From Acidipropionibacterium jensenii DSM 20535 (GTDB lineage: Bacteria; Actinomycetota; Actinomycetes; Propionibacteriales; Propionibacteriaceae), in NCBI RefSeq assembly GCF_000425285.1, contig NZ_AUDD01000004.1:124001-188000 (forward strand): a stretch of DNA of 64,000 bases. The letters are read 5' to 3'. Shown here piece by piece: positions 3,525 through 12,857 of this stretch (the stretch's first letter is position 1; every line of letters starts with the position of its first letter). The position numbers were made by a program, and so were the translations under genes. Under the pieces are notes generated by a model. That model saw nothing but the letters and a program-made list of their open reading frames with translations. It was not told the origin of the DNA and made no database searches.

Positions 3525-4619
3525 TCAGGAGCGCAGCCCCCAGTGGTGCTCGCGCATCCAGGCCCGCAGGTCGTCGGCTCGCGTCCGATCGACCTCGATG
3601 GACAGGAACCCGGCGTCGCGGGCCTGGTCATGCTCCACCGAGAGGTCCTCGATGTTGACCCCCAGGCGGTCGATGTCGGCGAACAGCCGCGCCAGGGCTC
3701 CAGGCTGGTCGGGGATCTCGACCACCACGGTGGTCGTCTCCGACATCTCCTTGCCGTGCTTGCCGCCCAGGGAGCGGGCGCCGGCCCGGCCCATCGCCAG
3801 GAAGGACTCCAGCTCGTCGGGGTTGTCCAGCACTCCGATGAGGGTGTCCAGATCCTCGCGGACCTGGCTGAGCTGCTCGCGCACGGCGGGCCGGTTGGCG
3901 GTGAGGATCTGGCGCCACATCCCGGTCTGGGACTGCGCGATCCGGGTGACGTCGCGGATCCCGCCGCCGGCCAGCGGCAGGTGAGAGCGCTGGGCGTGCC
4001 TGAGGTTCGCGGCGGTGAGGATGCTCATCAGCTGCGGCAGGTGGGAGACCTCGGCGACCGCGGTGTCGTGCTCCCGGGTGTCCAGGGAGACCGTCCGGGC
4101 ACCGCACAGTCTGGCCAGCCGGCGGACCCTCTCCACCGACTCGGCGCTGTTCTCGTGCCGAGGGGTCACCACCCAGGTGCGGTCGACGAAGAGCTCGGGG
4201 ACGGCGGTCAGCGGGCCGGTGTACTGGGTCCCCGACATCGGGTGTGAGCCGACGTAGCGGGACAGGTCGAGCTCGGTCTCGCGCAGCGCGCTGAGGACCG
4301 CCGACTTCACCGAGGCGGTGTCGGTGACCACCGCGGAGGGGTGCCATCTCAACCGCTCGGCGACGGTGGCGGCCACCGCCCCGGGAGGGGTGGCGACGAC
4401 GACGAGCCGGTAGTCGCCCGGGTCCAGCTGACTGAGCATCCCGGCGCCACGGCCGGCGGCCACCATCGCATTGGCCGGGTCGAGATCCCACAGGTGGACC
4501 TCCACCCCCTGGCTGGTGAGGGCGCACCCGATGGAGGCCCCGATCAGCCCGGTGCCGACGATGAGGACCGGCTCCAGGCTGGCGATGTCGCGCGGGTCGG
4601 CGGGAGGAAGCGGCGTCAC
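3525..4619 (-). CDS. tyrA: Prephenate dehydrogenase with C-terminal ACT domain
   Basis: About 364 residues. Converts prephenate to 4-hydroxyphenylpyruvate using NAD(P)+, for tyrosine synthesis. An N-terminal Rossmann motif (VGTGLIGASIG) is followed by the helical catalytic region with GSHPMSGTQYTGP. A C-terminal ACT domain (TTTVVVEIPDQPGALARLF onward) probably senses an aromatic amino acid. The start is the GTG at 4619, whose GTGA overlaps the prcA stop codon. This argues for co-transcription with the proteasome genes, an unusual partner for an aromatic pathway enzyme. cmk follows downstream after about 90 bases. Confidence 0.93.
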   Translation of the reverse strand: MTPLPPADPRDIASLEPVLIVGTGLIGASIGCALTSQGVEVHLWDLDPANAMVAAGRGAGMLSQLDPGDYRLVVVATPPGAVAATVAERLRWHPSAVVTDTASVKSAVLSALRETELDLSRYVGSHPMSGTQYTGPLTAVPELFVDRTWVVTPRHENSAESVERVRRLARLCGARTVSLDTREHDTAVAEVSHLPQLMSILTAANLRHAQRSHLPLAGGGIRDVTRIAQSQTGMWRQILTANRPAVREQLSQVREDLDTLIGVLDNPDELESFLAMGRAGARSLGGKHGKEMSETTTVVVEIPDQPGALARLFADIDRLGVNIEDLSVEHDQARDAGFLSIEVDRTRADDLRAWMREHHWGLRS

Positions 4620-5302
4620 CTGGCACCCCAGAAGGATCGGATCCGCTCGGCGCTGAGCCGGCGGAAGGTTCGGCGGCCGCCGGTGCGTGGATCGAGGATC
4701 GAGACCTCCAGCTGCTCGGGGGTCGGTTCGGAGGAGGCGGTGAGCGCCGCGGCGGCGCACCGCACGGCGTCGTCGAGGGGGGTGGAGTCGGTGAGGAACT
4801 CGTTGAGGGTGTCGCGGCGGTCCTGGGCCATCGGTCCCAGCACCGTCGGGGCACTGCCGTCAGCGACCGAGCCGTCCCAGGAGATCTTGAAGATCCTGTC
4901 CTCGGCGCGGCTGAGTCCCAGTTCGGCGACCGCCAGTTCCACCTCGTAGGGCTTCTGGGACAGCGTCGCGAAGTTCGCGCCGATCACCTGGGCGTAGGTG
5001 GTGGCCAGCGCCAGGCCGGTGACGTCGAGGCGGTCGTAGGCGTAGGCACGGATGTCGGCCAGTCGGATCCCGGCCACCCGCAGCTGCTCCAACTCGTCGT
5101 AGCGACCGACCGCAGCGAATCCGATCCGGTCATGGATCTCGGAGGTCTTGCGCAGGGACCTCGATGAGTTGAGGGCCACCATGCAGATCCCGTCGGCGCA
5201 GCGGGCCACCACCACCGCCCGGCCGCGAGACACCCCGCGCCGGGCATAGTCCGCCCTGTCGCTCATCCACTGGTCGGGTGAGACGTATGCGGGCATGGTC
5301 AT
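4616..5302 (-). CDS. prcA: 20S proteasome alpha subunit
   Basis: A 228-residue alpha-type subunit that forms the outer, gating rings of the bacterial 20S proteasome. It begins MTMPAYVSPDQWMSDRADYARRG, which matches the family's N-terminal gate and H0 helix (YARRGVSRGRAVV). The sequence DGICMVALNSSRSLRKTSEI follows, with no catalytic Thr, as expected for alpha. The ATG at 5302 follows GAGGAG by 7 bases. A two-codon-later ATG is possible. prcB lies 79 bases upstream. The stop overlaps the tyrA start as GTGA. The length is slightly below mycobacterial PrcA, and the C-terminus is short. Confidence 0.94.
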   Translation of the reverse strand: MTMPAYVSPDQWMSDRADYARRGVSRGRAVVVARCADGICMVALNSSRSLRKTSEIHDRIGFAAVGRYDELEQLRVAGIRLADIRAYAYDRLDVTGLALATTYAQVIGANFATLSQKPYEVELAVAELGLSRAEDRIFKISWDGSVADGSAPTVLGPMAQDRRDTLNEFLTDSTPLDDAVRCAAAALTASSEPTPEQLEVSILDPRTGGRRTFRRLSAERIRSFWGAR

Positions 5303-5381
5303 TGGACTGCTCCTCTCGCGATGATGGCGAAGACGTGGTGACGGTGGCGGACGATGGTGACGAGACGGCGGGACCGGCCGG

Positions 5382-6200
5382 TCAGGAGCTCTCGTTGGAC
5401 TGGGTGACCTCGTCGACGATCCGCTTGGCGACCAGCGCAACGTTCTCCGTGGAGATCTTCGTCACACCGTCCTCGTCGGCGACCATCACCACCGGATAGA
5501 TGCCCCGGGCCAGGTCCGGGCCGGCGGTGGCGGCGTCGTCGTCGGAGGCGTCGTAGATCGCGCGCACCGCCAGCTGGACGGCCTCGTCGCGGTCCATGTC
5601 CAGCCGGTGCAACTTCTTGAGGGTCGCCTTGGCGAAGATGCCCCCCGACCCGGTGGTGCAGAAGGAGTGCTCCTCGTAGCGGCCGCCGGTGCCGTCGTAG
5701 GAAAAGATCCGACCGAGGTGGCGGACCACGTCCCAGCCGGCGAAGACCGGGATGACGGCGATCCCCTGGACCGCCATCGCCATGTTGGACCGCACCAGGA
5801 TCGACAGTCGGGCGGCCCGGCCGTCCAGACTCAACGGACGACCCTCGATCTTCTCGTAGTGCTCCAGCTCGGTCTGGAACAGTCGCACCATCTCGATGGC
5901 CAGTCCGGCGGCCCCGGCCACCCCGATCACCGAGGTGTCGTCGGCTCCGACCACCTTCTCGATGTCGCGCTGGGCGATGAGGGTGCCCATGGTGGCCCGC
6001 CGGTCCCCGGCCACCACCACCCCCGAGGTGTACTTCAGCGCCACGATGGTGGTGCCGTGTCGCAGCAGCTCCGGCATGCTGGTGTCCAGCGTGTTGGGGG
6101 GCAGCAGATCCGGGGACACCTGACGGGTGAACTCGGCGAAGGAGTCGCTGCCGGCGGCGAGATAGGGGGCTGGGAGCACCGTTCCCCAGGGCTGGATCAT
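5382..6200 (-). CDS. prcB: 20S proteasome beta subunit (catalytic)
   Basis: A 272-residue N-terminal nucleophile hydrolase. The propeptide (residues 1-49) ends in LLRHG; autocleavage would expose Thr50 in TTIVALKYTSGVVVAGDRRAT, which matches the actinobacterial beta subunit closely. Asp, Arg and Lys residues of the active site are present in the GDRRAT block and after it. It precedes prcA. In mycobacteria pup lies directly upstream of prcB, but here the next upstream gene is the divergent DUF3054 gene. The intervening 209 bases encode nothing resembling Pup on either strand. A substrate-delivery system must be elsewhere in the genome or absent. Confidence 0.95.
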   Translation of the reverse strand: MIQPWGTVLPAPYLAAGSDSFAEFTRQVSPDLLPPNTLDTSMPELLRHGTTIVALKYTSGVVVAGDRRATMGTLIAQRDIEKVVGADDTSVIGVAGAAGLAIEMVRLFQTELEHYEKIEGRPLSLDGRAARLSILVRSNMAMAVQGIAVIPVFAGWDVVRHLGRIFSYDGTGGRYEEHSFCTTGSGGIFAKATLKKLHRLDMDRDEAVQLAVRAIYDASDDDAATAGPDLARGIYPVVMVADEDGVTKISTENVALVAKRIVDEVTQSNESS

Positions 6201-6260
6201 GGTCCTCCTCCGCGTGACAGGGATGCCGTCGCGATCTTCGGGCCGCGGCGTGCCGACCCA

Positions 6261-6266
6261 AGACTA
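6261..6266 (-). promoter_or_regulatory. Candidate -10 box for the prcB-prcA-tyrA operon
   Basis: TAGTCT on the minus strand, 60 bases upstream of the prcB ATG. No convincing -35 hexamer is seen at the right distance. It resembles the TAG-type -10 boxes found before other genes in this window. Confidence 0.35.
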
Positions 6267-6328
6267 GCCAACCCGGTCGGTCCCAGGCGTCACCCTGCGC
6301 CAGAGGGCACGCCGGGCGGCCGATCCGG

Positions 6329-6390
6329 TAGTCTCATCGTCTCGACGGGCCCGCCCTCGGGTGCCGTCCGGCTACCTGACCGCGAGGGCG
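6329..6390 (+). promoter_or_regulatory. Candidate promoter and leader hairpin of the DUF3054 gene
   Basis: TAGTCT at 6329-6334 is a candidate -10. Downstream, in the predicted 5' leader, CGCCCTCG (6352-6359) and CGAGGGCG (6383-6390) form a perfect 8-base-pair stem around a 23-base loop. It ends 19 bases before the start codon. Function unknown. Confidence 0.3.
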
Positions 6391-6409
6391 CGTTCAGGAT
6401 GAGGCATCG

Positions 6410-6790
6410 ATGAGCCACAGCAACGACACAGCGACGGGTCAGGTGCGCCTGGCCGTGGTGATGGACGTCCTCTCGGTGGCGGTCTTCGTCATCATCGGCC
6501 GGCTCTCCCACCACGAGACCCTCACCCCCGGCGGACTGCTGAGGACCATCGTCCCCTTCTTCGTCGGCCTGGTGGTCGGCTGGACGGCCGTCGTGGTGCT
6601 GCGGATGTCGGCGGCGCGCTGGAGGGGCGGCGTGGTCGTGTGGGCCGCCACTCTGGTGGTCGGCATGGTGATCCGCCACTTCACCCACCAGGGGGTCGCG
6701 GTCTCCTTCGTCATCGTCGCCGCGATCTTTCTGGCCCTCTTCCTGATCGGCTGGCGGCTGGTCGCCAAACTGGTGAAACGGCACTCCTGA
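6410..6790 (+). CDS. DUF3054 family integral membrane protein
   Basis: A 126-residue protein with four predicted membrane helices: about 13-30, 42-62, 70-88 and 97-117. It has a cytosolic basic tail (KLVKRHS). The family is widespread in actinobacteria and has no known function. A ribosome binding site (GAGG) lies 6 bases before the ATG. It is a single gene, divergent from prcB and convergent with the HAD-TrmI gene, whose stop is only 16 bases away. In proteasome-bearing relatives pup and dop would be expected around here. Confidence 0.85.
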   Translation: MSHSNDTATGQVRLAVVMDVLSVAVFVIIGRLSHHETLTPGGLLRTIVPFFVGLVVGWTAVVVLRMSAARWRGGVVVWAATLVVGMVIRHFTHQGVAVSFVIVAAIFLALFLIGWRLVAKLVKRHS

Positions 6791-6810
6791 GCCACCGAGT
6801 GGGGACTCAG
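6787..6810. terminator. Hairpin between converging genes
   Basis: CTGAG and CTCAG arms enclose an inner CCAC-CGA-GTGG hairpin. The structure spans the DUF3054 stop codon and the HAD-TrmI stop codon. There is no T-tract. A bidirectional terminator is plausible but weak. Confidence 0.35.
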
Positions 6811-8411
6811 CGCTCCTCCTTGGCCACCCGCCACTGGTCGTGCTCGGTGATGTTGCGCGGCCTGGGGCCGTGGTAGTCGGGCCCGTAGGCTCCCGGGGCC
6901 GGACGGCGCTTGCGCATCGGGGCCACCACCCCGGGGGCCAGTCGCCGTGCGATCACCAAGAATCCGGTGTGCCCGGTGGATCCGTGGGAGGGCCTGATCG
7001 ACAGTCCCTCGGCATGCCAGTCGCGGATCGTCGTCTCGGTGGCGGAGGGCTCGGTCCAGCCCCCCTCGGCCCGCAGGGTGTCCATCACCCGTCCCATCTG
7101 GGTAGTGGTGGCGACGTAGCAGCACAGGACGCCGCCGGGGACCAGGACGTCGCCCACCGCCTGGACGCACTCCCAGGGGGCCAGCATGTCCAGCACGGCG
7201 CGGTCCACTGGTTCCGGTGAGATCTCGGTGGCCAGATCGGCCAGCGTGAGCTGCCAGGATCCGGGCTCCTGCCCGTAGAAGGTGATGACATTGCAGCGGG
7301 CCACCTCGGCGAACTCGGGGCGCCGCTCGTAGGAGGTGAGCCGGCCCTGCGGGCCGATCGCCCGCAGCAGCGGGATCGTGAGACCGCCGGAACCCACCCC
7401 CGCCTCCAGCACCCGGGCGCCCGGGAAGATGTCGGCCATCATGAGGATCTGGGCCGACTCCTTGGGGTAGATGATCGCCGCCTCGCGGGGCATCGTCACC
7501 GTGAACTCGCTGAGGATGGGCCGCATCGCCAGGAAGTCCATCCCCCCGGCGGAAGTCACCACCACCCCCTGGGGTCCCCCGATCAGATCGTCGTGGCGGA
7601 CCATCCCCTTGGTGGTGTGGAAGACGCCCCCCTCGGACAGCACGATGGAGTGGCGCCGTCCCTTCGAGTCGGTGAGGGTGACCCGCTCCCCGGCCCTCAG
7701 CACTCCCCCGCCGCCTGCCGACATCGGGGCGGCCTGCTGGCCGGCCAGATGCCACAGCTTCACCAGATCGGCCAGGTGGACGCCGTCCAGGTTGGCCCGG
7801 CGGACCCGGTCGGGGGCCGGCGGCGCGGTGGCGACGCCGGCCAGGGCCAGCACCCGGGCCCCGGCCTCATTGCCGGCCCGGGCGCCGGAGACCGAGTCCT
7901 CGATCACCAGGCAGTCGGCCGGGTCCACACCCAACCGAGAGGCCGCCATGAGATAGGGGTCCGGTGCCGGCTTCGCCCGGCCCTCGGGCATCTCGTCGAA
8001 GGTGATGACGACGTCGAACAGACCGTCCTCGAAGTGGTCCAGCAGGGGCGACATCACCGTCCGCGGGGAACCGGTCACCAGGGCGCACGGGATTCCCGCC
8101 GCCCGCACCTCCTGGAGCAGCGGGTAGGCGCCCGGTGTCCACGGCACCTCCCGTTCCCGGTGGTAGCGGCGCACCGTGGCCACCAGCAGGTCGGCGACAC
8201 CCTCGGGGGTCGGGTCGCCGCCGACGGCCTCGCTCAGGGCGGCGCACACGGTGGTCATCGGCGCGGAGACCAGACTCCTGGCCTGCTCCTCGCTCCACTG
8301 GTGGCCACGAGCCGTCACGATCTCCGTCTCGGCCTCCATCCACCGCGGCTCGGTGTCGACCAGGGTGCCGTCGAGATCCCACAGGACGGCGGACAGTGTG
8401 TCATTTGGCAT
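6807..8411 (-). CDS. Fusion: HAD-family phosphatase + tRNA (adenine-N1)-methyltransferase TrmI
   Basis: A 534-residue reading frame containing two complete enzymes. Residues 1 to about 228 are a HAD subfamily I hydrolase: nucleophile motif DLDGT (Asp12, Asp14), VTGSPRTVMSP, and KPAPDPYLMAA followed by VIEDSVSGARAG. From Met230 onward it is a TrmI-type enzyme, which makes m1A58 in the tRNA T-loop: RAGERVTLTD, VVVTSAGGMDFLAMRP, SAM-binding VLEAGVGSGGLT near residue 334, and LDMLAPWE. No stop codon separates them, and the linker is only a few Gly/Ala residues (LAGQQAAPMSAGGGG). An internal start at Met230 could also yield free TrmI. The ATG at 8411 overlaps the metH stop by 11 bases. In mycobacteria trmI lies near mpa and dop as a separate gene. 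The substrate of the HAD half is unknown. Confidence 0.88.
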   Translation of the reverse strand: MPNDTLSAVLWDLDGTLVDTEPRWMEAETEIVTARGHQWSEEQARSLVSAPMTTVCAALSEAVGGDPTPEGVADLLVATVRRYHREREVPWTPGAYPLLQEVRAAGIPCALVTGSPRTVMSPLLDHFEDGLFDVVITFDEMPEGRAKPAPDPYLMAASRLGVDPADCLVIEDSVSGARAGNEAGARVLALAGVATAPPAPDRVRRANLDGVHLADLVKLWHLAGQQAAPMSAGGGGVLRAGERVTLTDSKGRRHSIVLSEGGVFHTTKGMVRHDDLIGGPQGVVVTSAGGMDFLAMRPILSEFTVTMPREAAIIYPKESAQILMMADIFPGARVLEAGVGSGGLTIPLLRAIGPQGRLTSYERRPEFAEVARCNVITFYGQEPGSWQLTLADLATEISPEPVDRAVLDMLAPWECVQAVGDVLVPGGVLCCYVATTTQMGRVMDTLRAEGGWTEPSATETTIRDWHAEGLSIRPSHGSTGHTGFLVIARRLAPGVVAPMRKRRPAPGAYGPDYHGPRPRNITEHDQWRVAKEER

Positions 8412-11400
8412 TGAAGTAGCTGGCCTCCGGGTGATGGACGACGAATGCATCGGTGGACTGTTCCGGGTGCAGCTGGAACTCCTCCGACAGCTCGACGCCG
8501 ATGCGGCCGGGATCCAGCAGACCCGCGAGCTTGGCGCGATCCTCAAGATTGGGGCATGCGGCGTAGCCGAAACTGTACCGGCAGCCCCGGTAGGTCTGGT
8601 GATCGATGGCCGCGGCGATGTCCTCGTGGGGGGCGGCGATGCCGAGCTCCTGACGGACCCGGTGGTGCCACATCTCGGCCAGCGCCTCGGCCAGCTGCAC
8701 CGACAGGCCGTGCAGTTCCAGGTACTCCCGGTAGGAGTTGGCCTCGAAGAGCTCGGCGGTGGCCCTCGACACCTGCTGTCCCATCGTCACCAGCTGGAAG
8801 GCGATGACATCGGGGCCCAGCTCGGCGGCCTCGGCGGCGTCGCGGAAGAAGTCCGCCAGGCACAGCCGGCGTCCGCCGTGCTGGCGGGGGAACTCGAAGC
8901 GGGTGAGCTCCCGGGAGGTGTCGGCCGGGTCCAGGACGATGAGTCGGCGGCCTTCGGCGACCACCGGCCAGTAGCCGTGCACCACCCCGAACCGGGCCAG
9001 GTTCTCGGCGCGGATCCTGTCCAGCAGCATCCGCAGCCGTGGCCGGCCGATGTCACGGACCATCCGGTCGTAGGAGCCGTCCGTGCGACTGCCCTTGAGC
9101 CCCCACCGGCCCATGAAGGTGGCCCTCTCGTCGAGCCACTGGGTGACCTCGTCCAGGGCGATCCCCTTGGTGACCCGCGACCCCCAGAACGGCGGGGTGG
9201 GGACGTCGACACCGCCGGCCGGGGTGGGCCGGGCGACATCGGAGCGGACATCGGGCTGCGCCGGATCGGCCCCGCCCGACTTCCCGGACCCACCGGAGGT
9301 GGCGGCCTCGGCACCACCGACAGAGCCGGCGCGGGGACGGGCCGGGACCCGTCGGGCGCGGATCTCGGGCAGCGAGGAACCGGGCACGCCGTGCTTGACG
9401 GCCATCACCGAGTCCATCAGCCGCAGTCCCTCGAAGGCGTCCCTGGCGTAGCGGACCTCCCCCTCGAACAGGTCGTTGAGGTCGTGCTCGACGTAGGACC
9501 GGGTGAGCGCGGCGCCGCCGAGCATCACCGGGTAGTTGCGGGCCAGCCCCTCCCGGTTGAGCTCCAGCAGGTTGTCGCGCATCACCATGGTGGACTTCAC
9601 CAGCAGCCCCGACATCCCGATGGCGTCGGCGTGGTGCTCCTCGGCGGCCCGGATGATCGCCTGGACCGGCTGCTTGATGCCCAGGTTCACCACCGAGTAG
9701 CCGTTGTTGGAGACGATGATGTCGACGAGGTTCTTGCCGATGTCGTGGACGTCCCCCTTGACGGTGGCGAGCACCAGGGTGCCCTTGCCGCCGGCATCGG
9801 TCTTCTCCATGTGCGGCTCCAGGTGGGCGACCGCGGTCTTCATCACCTCGGCCGACTGCAGCACGAAGGGCAGCTGCATCCGCCCCAAGCCGAACAGCTC
9901 GCCGACCACCTGCATGCCGGCCAGCAGGTCCTCGTTGACGATGTCCAGGGCCCCCTTGACGGTCAGCGCCTCGTCCAGGTCCTCGATGAGCCCCTTCGCG
10001 TTGCCGTCGATGATGCGCTGCTTGAGCCGCTCCAGCAGCGGCATGGCGGCCAGCTCGGCCTCCCTCTCGGCCTTCATCGAGGCCGCCGTCACTCCCTCGA
10101 AGAGTTCCAGGAAGCGGGTCAGCGGGTCGTAGCCCTCCACCCCGCGCGGTGCCGGGGCGTCGGTGCCGCGGCGGTCCCAGACCAGGTCCAGGGCCACCTC
10201 CCGCTGCTCCTCGGGGATCCGGTCGATCGGCAGGATCTTGGCGGCGTGGACGATGGCGGAGTCCAGGCCGGCCTCCACCGCCTCGTGCAGGAACACCGAG
10301 TTGAGCACGATGCGGGCGGCCGGGTTGAGTCCGAAGGAGATGTTGGAGACCCCCAGGGTGGTGCGCACCCCCGGGTACCGGCTCTTGAGCTCGCGGATCG
10401 CCTCGATGGTCTCCACCCCGTCGCGACGGGTCTCCTGCTGGCCGGTGGCGATCGGGAAGGTGAGGCAGTCCACCAGGATGTCGCCGACCTCCATCCCCCA
10501 CCGGCGGACCAGGTCGTCGATGAGACGGGAGGCCACCCGGACCTTCCACTCCCGGGTGCGGGCCTGGCCCTCCTCGTCGATGGTCAGCGCCACCACCCCG
10601 GCGCCGTGCTCGCGGACCAGGGGCATCACCCGCTGGTAGCGGGACTCGGGCCCGTCGCCGTCCTCGAAGTTCACCGAGTTGATGATGCAGCGTCCCGCCA
10701 GGTGCTCCAGGCCGGTTCGCAGCACCTGCGGCTCGGTGGAGTCCAGGACCACCGGAAGGGTGACGGCGGTCGACATCCGGGCGGCCAGGGTGGCCATGTC
10801 GGCGGTCCCGTCGCGGCCGACGTAGTCGACGCACAGGTCCAGCAGGTGGGCGCCGTCGCGGGTCTGGGTCTTGGCGATGTCGATGCACTCGTCCCAGTTC
10901 TCCGCCAGCATCGCCTCGCGGAAGGCCTTGGAGCCGTTGGCGTTGGTGCGCTCACCGATCGCCAGGTAGGCGGTGTCCTGGGACAGCGGCACCTCGGAGT
11001 ACAGGCTGGCGACGGCGTCGACGTGCACCGGGTGACGAGGCGCCACCGGGCGTCCGGCCAGGGCCGCCGAGACCATCGCGATGTGTTCGGGGGTGGTGCC
11101 GCAGCAGCCGCCGACCACCGACAGGCCGAACCGCTGGGCGTAGTCGGTGAGGGCCTCGGTGAGATCTTCGGGGCCCAGCGGGTAGCGGGCACCCTCCCCG
11201 GTGATGACGGGAAGACCGGCGTTGGGCATGCAGGTCACCGGGACCCGGGCGGCCCCCGACAGGGTGCGCAGATGCTCGGCCATCTCGGCGGGACCGGTGG
11301 CGCAGTTCATCCCGATGGCGTCGATGCCGAGGGGCTCCAGGACGGTGAGGGCGGCCCCGGTCTCCGATCCCAGCAGCATGGTGCCGGTGGTCTCCACCGT

Positions 11401-11970
11401 GATGTCGACCATCACCGGAAGGTCGACGCCGCGGGCGGCGGCGGCCCGGTGGGCTCCGATCACCGCGGCCTTGGCCTGCAGGAGGTCCTGGCAGGTCTCG
11501 ATCTGGACGGCGTCGGCCCCCTCGTCGATCATCGCCTCGATGGTCTGCTGGTAGACGTCGCGGATCGCGGCGAAGGCGATGTGGCCCAGGGTGGGCAGCT
11601 TGGTGCCCGGGCCCACCGATCCGACGACGAATCGCGGCCGGTCGGGGGTGCTGGCGGCATCGGCGGCCCGGCGGGCGAGCCGGGTGGCCGCCCCGGCGAG
11701 CTCGACGGCCCGCTCGGCGATGTCGTACTCCCCCAGCGCCGACAGGTTGGCACCGAAGGTGTTGGTCTCGATGAGATCGGCGCCGGCGGCCAGGTAGCGG
11801 TCATGGATCTCGGAAATGACGTCGGGCCGGGTGACGTTGAGGATCTCGTTGCAGCCCTCGAGGCCGTCGAAGTCGTCGAGGGACAGATCCGCGGCCTGCA
11901 ACATGGTGCCCATCGCACCGTCCAGGATGAGAAGTCGAGATCCCAGCGCGGAGCGAAGAGCCGAAGTCAT
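8401..11970 (-). CDS. metH: Cobalamin-dependent methionine synthase
   Basis: About 1189 residues. Transfers a methyl group from methyltetrahydrofolate to homocysteine via B12. Four modules can be read. The homocysteine domain has Zn-binding cysteines in NCATG (near 220) and GGCCGTTP (near 288). A pterin-binding domain (ERTNANGSKAF) follows. The B12 cap and Rossmann domain has DVHDIGKN near 740-747, with His742 as cobalt ligand. The C-terminal SAM reactivation domain has the block RGCRYSFGYAACPNLEDR. A Gly/Ser/Pro-rich insert (about 870-910) separates the B12 and activation domains. The ATG at 11970 is preferred over one four codons earlier. No cobalamin riboswitch fits in the 68-base gap to the divergent PAC2 gene. 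Confidence 0.96.
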   Translation of the reverse strand: MTSALRSALGSRLLILDGAMGTMLQAADLSLDDFDGLEGCNEILNVTRPDVISEIHDRYLAAGADLIETNTFGANLSALGEYDIAERAVELAGAATRLARRAADAASTPDRPRFVVGSVGPGTKLPTLGHIAFAAIRDVYQQTIEAMIDEGADAVQIETCQDLLQAKAAVIGAHRAAAARGVDLPVMVDITVETTGTMLLGSETGAALTVLEPLGIDAIGMNCATGPAEMAEHLRTLSGAARVPVTCMPNAGLPVITGEGARYPLGPEDLTEALTDYAQRFGLSVVGGCCGTTPEHIAMVSAALAGRPVAPRHPVHVDAVASLYSEVPLSQDTAYLAIGERTNANGSKAFREAMLAENWDECIDIAKTQTRDGAHLLDLCVDYVGRDGTADMATLAARMSTAVTLPVVLDSTEPQVLRTGLEHLAGRCIINSVNFEDGDGPESRYQRVMPLVREHGAGVVALTIDEEGQARTREWKVRVASRLIDDLVRRWGMEVGDILVDCLTFPIATGQQETRRDGVETIEAIRELKSRYPGVRTTLGVSNISFGLNPAARIVLNSVFLHEAVEAGLDSAIVHAAKILPIDRIPEEQREVALDLVWDRRGTDAPAPRGVEGYDPLTRFLELFEGVTAASMKAEREAELAAMPLLERLKQRIIDGNAKGLIEDLDEALTVKGALDIVNEDLLAGMQVVGELFGLGRMQLPFVLQSAEVMKTAVAHLEPHMEKTDAGGKGTLVLATVKGDVHDIGKNLVDIIVSNNGYSVVNLGIKQPVQAIIRAAEEHHADAIGMSGLLVKSTMVMRDNLLELNREGLARNYPVMLGGAALTRSYVEHDLNDLFEGEVRYARDAFEGLRLMDSVMAVKHGVPGSSLPEIRARRVPARPRAGSVGGAEAATSGGSGKSGGADPAQPDVRSDVARPTPAGGVDVPTPPFWGSRVTKGIALDEVTQWLDERATFMGRWGLKGSRTDGSYDRMVRDIGRPRLRMLLDRIRAENLARFGVVHGYWPVVAEGRRLIVLDPADTSRELTRFEFPRQHGGRRLCLADFFRDAAEAAELGPDVIAFQLVTMGQQVSRATAELFEANSYREYLELHGLSVQLAEALAEMWHHRVRQELGIAAPHEDIAAAIDHQTYRGCRYSFGYAACPNLEDRAKLAGLLDPGRIGVELSEEFQLHPEQSTDAFVVHHPEASYFNAK

Positions 11971-12026
11971 GGGCCCCACCATAGGGGTAGGGATCGCGGA
12001 ATCGGAGATTCGGCCGCCGAACGGAC

Positions 12027-12038: not shown

Positions 12039-12857
12039 ATGGCCCGGCACAGTAGTGATCATCCCTGGGTGATCGTCGGATACACAGGGTGGAATGACGC
12101 GGGAGGCGCAGCCTCCGAGACGGCGGCCCGCATCATCCGCCACACCGATGCCACCGAGTGGAAGGTCCTGGACTCCGAGGACTACTACAACTTCCAGGAC
12201 ACCCGTCCCGTGGTGGCGGCGATGGAGGGCGTCGAACTGCTCACCTGGCCCTCGACCACCGTGTGGCGCGGGCAGGCCGACGGTCACCCGGTGGCGGTGG
12301 TCACCGGACCGGAGCCCGACCTGCGCTGGCGCTCCTACTGCCGTGAGCTGCTGGACACCCTGATGAAGCTGGATCCCGAGGGGATCGTCGTGCTCGGCGG
12401 GATGGTCGCCGACGTCCCCCACACCCGTCAGCTGCCGGTCTCCGGATCGGCCTCGGACCCCTCGATCGCCGAGCAGCTCGGTCTGGAGGGGCTCGAGTAC
12501 TCCGGACCGACCGGTATTCCCGGGGTGCTGGTCAGCCTGGCCGCCGACCGGGGCATGAATGCCGTGGGGCTGTGGGCCAATGTGCCCGAGTACGCTTACG
12601 AGCCGCCCTGCCCGCCGGCCGTCCAGAGTCTGCTGGTGCGGGTCGAGGAGCTCACCGGGGTGACGGTTCCCCAGGACGAGCTCGTCGAGCGTCGCCAGAA
12701 GTGGGTCACCGACGCCGACAAGATGGTCACCGACAACGACTCACTGAGCGACTACGTCCACGCGCTGGAGCGCCAGCGCGATGCCGAGCTGCCCGAGGGG
12801 GTCACCGGCGACGTGCTGGCGATGGAGTTCCAGCACTACCTGCGGCACCGCTCCTGA
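12039..12857 (+). CDS. PAC2 family protein (proteasome assembly chaperone-like)
   Basis: A 272-residue protein matching the PAC2 family, named after a eukaryotic proteasome assembly chaperone. Recognisable parts are WVIVGYTGWNDAGGAAS at the N-terminus, the central LGGMVADVPHTRQLPVSGSAS, then GIPGVLVSLAADRGMNAVGLW. A helical C-terminal region (about 200-272) contains coiled-coil-like stretches. The actinobacterial members have no proven function. The metH/PAC2 divergent pair near proteasome genes is also found in mycobacteria, but PAC2 members occur in many actinobacteria without proteasomes. The gene converges on rpe with an 11-base gap. Confidence 0.85.
   Translation: MARHSSDHPWVIVGYTGWNDAGGAASETAARIIRHTDATEWKVLDSEDYYNFQDTRPVVAAMEGVELLTWPSTTVWRGQADGHPVAVVTGPEPDLRWRSYCRELLDTLMKLDPEGIVVLGGMVADVPHTRQLPVSGSASDPSIAEQLGLEGLEYSGPTGIPGVLVSLAADRGMNAVGLWANVPEYAYEPPCPPAVQSLLVRVEELTGVTVPQDELVERRQKWVTDADKMVTDNDSLSDYVHALERQRDAELPEGVTGDVLAMEFQHYLRHRS

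Follow-up and report, generated by a model that had tools for sequence, protein, structure and literature searches.

The stretch analysed here, in the following the window, comprises 64,000 nucleotides of Acidipropionibacterium jensenii DSM 20535 (positions 124001-188000 of contig C4 in genome G000; 3.03 Mb in 56 contigs, 100% complete) and harbours prcB and prcA, the genes for the beta and alpha subunits of the 20S proteasome core. Both genes are intact, and, as shown by protein family models, the genome encodes neither Pup nor PafA/Dop, Mpa, Bpa or Cpa, a loss that is common to a whole branch of the family Propionibacteriaceae. The best reading of this state, which we hold with a confidence just short of even, is a Pup-independent core that probably works unassisted. 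In the Pup-proteasome system of mycobacteria, Streptomyces, Nocardioides and Enemella the same prcB-prcA pair is found with the same catalytic residues and in the same neighbourhood (TrmI, DUF3054, prephenate dehydrogenase (PDH), Cmk and Der), whereas the window genome lacks pup, dop, pafA and mpa.

prcB (5382-6200, minus strand) encodes a precursor of 272 amino acids with a propeptide of 49 residues, and prcA (4616-5302, minus strand) an alpha subunit of 228 amino acids. Both open frames are uninterrupted and their products score above the model cut-offs (PrcB: TIGR03690, 320.3 bits vs. 191.9, and PF00227; PrcA: TIGR03691, 248.8 bits vs. 139.05). Residue 50 of the PrcB precursor aligns with the first residue of the mature Rhodococcus beta chain 1q5q_H, i.e. 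the predicted catalytic Thr1 codon lies at 6051-6053 (minus strand), in agreement with the first-pass annotation, which had described both genes as intact and the Thr as following LLRHG. One intact family locus (L120, which we take to be that of Enemella) has the order TrmI-Mpa-DUF3054-Dop-Pup-PrcB-PrcA-PDH-Cmk-Der, and the window has TrmI-DUF3054-PrcB-PrcA-PDH-Cmk-Der. Comparison of the two orders implies that the genes flanking DUF3054, mpa on its TrmI side and dop-pup on its prcB side, have disappeared, with the remainder in place. DUF3054, a membrane protein gene (6410-6790, plus strand; PF11255) that lies between mpa and dop in L120, is separated by 16 bases (6791-6806) from HAD-TrmI, judged by gene order the place of mpa in that locus, and by 209 bases (6201-6409) from the divergent prcB, where intact loci carry dop-pup. 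The latter gap holds no pup remnant: a family Pup query gave no match at 1e-4 anywhere in the window, in the same run this query detected Pup in 7 of the loci with an intact or Pup-only arrangement, and nothing resembling Pup was seen when the three frames of the gap in the prcB direction were read. The old flanks are still present, i.e. HAD phosphatase and TrmI methyltransferase in a single open frame (6807-8411, minus strand; PF00702, PF14801, PF08704) and, on the other side, PDH (3525-4622, minus strand; PF02153, PF20463), which shares 7 bases with the end of prcA.

The first-pass annotation had proposed genome-wide searches for Pup, Dop/PafA and Mpa/ARC with a GQYL-like tail, and these were carried out for the five genomes of the window's genus (g1), including G003 and G027, each assembled as a single contig and 100% complete (G063 is 86% complete). 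Pup had no match in the window genome or in any of the five, with Corynebacterium glutamicum as positive control, and PF03136, a single Pfam model that does not distinguish PafA from Dop, was likewise negative in 5/5. Mpa/ARC did not exceed the cut-off anywhere in g1; with at most 16 candidates scored per genome, the best match in the window genome reached 151 bits vs. 504.75 and is FtsH, containing an AAA and a peptidase M41 domain. No intact pup-dop-mpa cluster was found elsewhere in the window genome. Of the two options originally left open, that the tagging genes were lost or had moved, only the first holds: as judged from the models, with which the single-contig genomes G003 and G027 agree, the genes are lost rather than moved, and a split system is not borne out.

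The other suggestion of the first-pass annotation, a different route to the 20S core, may be correct, but the known candidates for such a route are missing as well. The Bpa (PafE) route is independent of ATP and Pup and would share with the window the Pup-independent use of the core; it is realized in genus g21, which has the core and a Bpa with a GMYL tail and no Pup, whereas Bpa (PF10759) has no match in 5/5 g1 genomes. Cpa, a Cdc48-like partner treated in a passage of PMC6017811, would be Pup-independent and ATP-driven. With at most 12 candidates scored per genome, the Cdc48 model TIGR01243 gave at best 257 bits over one AAA domain in the window genome, this match again being FtsH, and among 77 genomes of the family the best value was 260 bits over one AAA domain, with no double-AAA match. 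As a control, the same model yields 393-706 bits across both AAA domains in 8 of 59 genomes of the class; absence of Cpa is commonplace, since most of these 59 also lack such a match. With Bpa and Cpa absent besides the Pup system, no described route to the 20S core is left.

A pattern of GQYL followed by a stop codon gave no true match in the five g1 genomes, the matches in G027 and G047 reading GQYF and a Trp codon, and was positive directly behind mpa in G018, G074 and G022. This negative counts only against Mpa-like tails, because the pattern misses the GMYL of the family's Bpa; as a test for any activator it was rejected, being blind to GMYL and GLYL. Among the 27 Bpa loci of the family (L079-L105) the tail is GMYL in 25 and GLYL in 1, compared to GQYL in mycobacteria; 26/27 tails were scored, as the frames examined did not include that of G018.

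The state of the window is rare in the class and concentrated in the family. Among the 77 family genomes, which represent 29 genera, the beta subunit is found in 45, the Pup ligase/Dop family in 38, Mpa over the cut-off in 35, Pup in 35 and Bpa in 27. Twenty-two of the 45 core-bearing genomes lack ligase/Dop (g1 5/5, g13 4, g16 4, g21 4, g27 3, g24 1 and g28 1/3), and all of these 22 are likewise without Pup and without an Mpa match above the cut-off. Four of them, all g21, carry Bpa; the other 18, from six genera, lack any described partner. In a class sample of 246 genomes, each at least 95% complete, the core is present in 199 and the ligase family in 206; only 2/199 have the core without ligase (G000 and G013, both members of the family), and nine have the ligase without core. 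This reverse state occurs in 15/77 family genomes and corresponds to the loss of the Corynebacterium type, in which, according to a passage of PMC3511204, the core was lost and pupylation kept. It is also a partial loss at the same locus, but the window has lost the opposite half; in G017 (L202), a mirror image of the window, prcBA is gone, Pup adjoins PDH, and Dop lies farther away.

To place these states we used a single-gene rpoB tree (FastTree, midpoint root) of 60/77 genomes, with frames picked by BLASTP against the RpoB of G003; the other 17 stayed outside the tree, being e.g. fragmented or without match. FtsH was dropped as species marker, since some genomes show two FtsH-like matches. 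g1 and g13 are sister clades (support 100), nested in a clade (support 97) together with g16, g27, g7, g12 and g26. None of the 20 rows of this clade has a Pup system; the core is kept in 16 rows from four genera and lost in 4, with g7, g12 and g26 lacking it. g21 and g24 fall into the other half of the tree, and g28 is placed tentatively near the clade. The Pup label requires a minimum of 5 changes on the tree and the core label a minimum of 8. Read most simply, pupylation, Mpa and Bpa would have been lost once, early on, after which four genera kept the core for a long time; the losses elsewhere would be separate.

The retained core has kept its catalytic equipment in the window. Five beta residues, T1, D17, K33, S129 and D166 in what we take to be the archaeal numbering, and two alpha residues, R26 and K52 in mycobacterial numbering, are identical in 23/23 core-bearing relatives that possess the ligase, and all seven are present in the window as well as in G003 and G027. 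Throughout g1, T1, D17, K33 and D166 are kept in 5/5 and S129 in 4/5 genomes (Thr in G063). Selective constraint was estimated as omega (Nei-Gojobori), for g1 from 10 pairs; across all genera the omega values exclude G053 (g13) and the lone genomes from g24 and g28. Values for g1 are 0.09-0.48 for prcB and 0.18-0.36 for prcA, compared to 0.14-0.38 for PDH, 0.18-0.40 for Cmk, 0.08-0.24 for Der, 0.10-0.25 for TrmI, 0.20-0.64 for HAD and 0.30-0.65 for DUF3054. With synonymous distances being rough in this GC-rich DNA, prcBA in g1 appears constrained about as much as its neighbours, and less tightly than Der and TrmI.

The docking surface of the alpha ring behaves differently from genus to genus. 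According to a passage of PMC11953334, R26 and K52 make contact with the GQYL tail of Bpa. For each genus, changes were counted at those alpha positions where all 23 relatives agree, 26 of them in the gate, H0 and pocket segments (docking segments) and 63 elsewhere, in a count whose cells are not independent and whose segments were picked by the analyst. In g1 the docking segments changed in 28/130 vs. 64/315 elsewhere (p 0.8; by sites p 0.47), in g13 in 70/104 vs. 81/252 (p 2e-9; by sites 23/26 vs. 31/63, p 0.0007) and in g16 in 3/104 vs. 32/252 (p 0.003; by sites 3/26 vs. 16/63, p 0.17). No such difference is seen in g27 (6/78 vs. 21/189, p 0.5), in the Bpa-bearing g21 (8/104 vs. 19/252, p 1) or in the single genomes of g24 (2/26 vs. 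2/63, p 0.6) and g28 (2/26 vs. 9/63, p 0.5). Docking erosion thus appears preferential in g13 and neutral in g1. At alpha position 5, Ala is found in 5/5 g1 and 3/4 g13 genomes, and the 36 remaining sequences carry F, I, L, M, V or Y; the N-terminus of G053 (g13) does not align.

For the unassisted core we propose the following course of events. An actinobacterial Pup-proteasome locus would have lost mpa on one flank of DUF3054 and dop-pup on the other, with prcBA retained in place under selection, and the present locus would be its remnant. The products would still assemble into a four-ring barrel, the beta propeptide would be cleaved off before Thr1, and peptides as well as unstructured or damaged proteins may enter unaided via a loosened alpha gate and be degraded, all of this requiring no tag, ATPase or Bpa. 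That the gate may be looser is our guess from the Ala at position 5 together with the apparently unguarded docking residues of g1. In favour of this explanation we count the joint absence of all described partners from 5/5 g1 genomes, the catalytic residues kept in g1, the constraint on prcB and prcA, the age of the state in the rpoB tree, the equal frequency of changes inside and outside the docking segments of g1, and the Ala at position 5.

Several observations weigh against the unassisted core. Such a core would break a rule, as a passage in a review (PMC12288473) states that degradation requires an activator besides the core. Four rows of the clade have lost the core altogether, so it is dispensable there. 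Within g1, R26 is kept in 4/5 genomes (Asp in G047) and K52 in 3/5 (Arg in G047, Gln in G063), which may mean that a docked partner persists, and the Arg at K52 in G047 may still serve. Moreover, the docking segments of g16 look guarded, if weakly, and g16 also lacks known partners.

In the second explanation, which we consider somewhat unlikely, a partner not described so far would feed the core, either a new ring whose tail is HbYX/GxYx or an AAA protein belonging to neither the Mpa nor the Cpa family. K52 is kept in 16/22 of the Pup-less core genomes and R or K is found at position 26 in 17/22, position 26 being Lys in G057 (g16) and in three g21 genomes. The docking segments of g16 changed less than the rest of the subunit, and they are not the slower part in Pup-bearing relatives: in a leave-one-genus-out control with the 23 relatives they change more (22/628 vs. 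25/1483, p 0.015). Additionally, the window genome encodes a candidate, a protein of 509 amino acids with TPR and a single AAA domain (L187, 1630-3159, minus strand; G000:C1 near 79,600-81,200) downstream of a gene for a TPR membrane protein, with similar matches in G047 and G063. However, the TPR-AAA protein does not appear among the listed matches of G003 and G027, both complete, and its C-terminus is HHLL, not HbYX; it was therefore rejected as general partner. The explanation is further weakened by the lack of GQYL-stop matches in g1, although that pattern skips tails of the GMYL type, and by the pocket changes in 2/5 g1 genomes.

The third explanation, in our view improbable for the window, is a core that is a relic in the process of being lost or that already fulfils a non-proteolytic role, but g13 seems to provide an example. 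This genus is probably Cutibacterium, as ribosomal protein S7 of the four g13 genomes shares 151-154 of 156 residues with its C. acnes counterpart (8crx, the C. acnes 70S ribosome according to a passage of PMC10085706), compared to 147-148 in three g1 genomes and 132-133 in g16 and g27; no S7 was detected in the stretch of G018, and C. acnes itself is outside the genome sample. Ribosomal L1 was discarded as marker for g13, no near-identical chain having been found. In g13, Arg replaces T1 in 3/4 genomes (G013, G035 and G069; HGRTALAI) and K33 in 4/4, and the docking residues R26/K52 are changed in 4/4. G053 retains T1 and has Val at S129; its prcA (L195, near 5,962) begins at the prcB stop with MTSNPPDTPVLLARYAGG and has neither gate nor H0 helix. 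The PrcA of G053 is a natural counterpart of an engineered open-gate alpha subunit. The prcB and prcA frames are nonetheless open in 4/4 g13 genomes, with omega values of 0.05-0.10 for prcB and 0.07-0.13 for prcA, above those of Der and TrmI (0.02-0.03) and derived from two of three pairs, the third being saturated for both genes. The natural inference is that the g13 core may be a dead or nearly dead, still constrained shell.

Replacement of T1 and K33 and preferential erosion of the docking segments in g13, where the frames are open all the same, speak for a relic or a non-proteolytic core, and g1 itself shows changes of the pocket Lys in 2/5 and of S129 in 1/5 genomes. In Mycobacterium tuberculosis an active-site mutant core restored growth and nitric oxide resistance, which its authors (Gandotra 2010, PMC2920845) read as a proteolysis-independent function. 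Against this stand the seven residues retained by the window, G003 and G027, omega values of prcB and prcA in g1 that are no higher than those of DUF3054 and resemble those of PDH and Cmk, and the retention of the core in 16/20 rows of the clade. The last explanation, that the missing genes lie elsewhere or in gaps of the 56-contig assembly as a mere rearrangement, is hardly credible, as Pup, ligase/Dop, Mpa and Bpa are jointly missing in 5/5 g1 genomes, two of them single contigs, in the same runs that match them in 35, 38, 35 and 27 of the 77 genomes, respectively.

We therefore rank the unassisted core first, an undescribed activator second and a relic or non-proteolytic shell third. The first suits g1 best, the second g16 and the third g13, and the clade may hold all three. 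Tentatively, and with more doubt than confidence, one may envisage a 20S core that leaves regulated proteolysis stepwise: tag, ligase, ATPase and Bpa would have been lost in an ancestor, the pocket would then have become unguarded in g1, and in g13 gate, pocket and the catalytic Thr and Lys would have changed, leaving an unbroken and still constrained but dead shell with a non-proteolytic role; g1 would represent a live core with no activator.

Part of this is already in print. A single sentence in Delley 2014 (PMC4254994) names Propionibacterium acnes as having a 20S core without ARC and Bpa, i.e. likewise 20S genes lacking ATPase or Bpa. That sentence is silent on Pup and the ligase, whereas the state described here extends over 18 genomes from six genera and includes the fate of docking and catalytic residues. 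T1 and K33 stand in g1, whereas in the sister genus 3/4 genomes have Arg at T1. In the open-access literature, with subscription papers and supplements outside this scope, we found no further account of a core without partners, none of the clade-wide pattern, no description of the changed catalytic residues and nothing on proteasomes of Acidipropionibacterium. This branch of the family would depart from the rule that degradation needs an activator, and the family offers natural stages, i.e. the full system, the core with Bpa, the core alone with its residues intact, and the core with its residues changed. At these stages one can examine what role a bacterial 20S core plays when it has no activator and whether it also serves a purpose other than proteolysis, as the active-site mutant reported in PMC2920845 suggested.

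Beyond the old locus flank the window continues with MetH (8401-11982, minus strand) and PAC2 (12039-12857, plus strand), and the gene positions confirm the order given earlier, namely DUF3054 upstream of prcB on the other strand, followed by trmI, metH and PAC2. The tblastn matches of HAD and TrmI abut in L190-L194, too, and are separated by 42-48 bases in L188, L189 and L195. In G063 (L191, 9556-11275) HAD is separated from the matched portion of MetH by about 1.7 kb, which the other g1 genomes do not show. g13 loci contain a cassette of about 4 kb between DUF3054 and prcB (L192, 2437-6227; L195, 6888-10749), which, on reading of the translations, encodes a TetR-like regulator, an ABC-type ATPase and a YhgE-like membrane protein.

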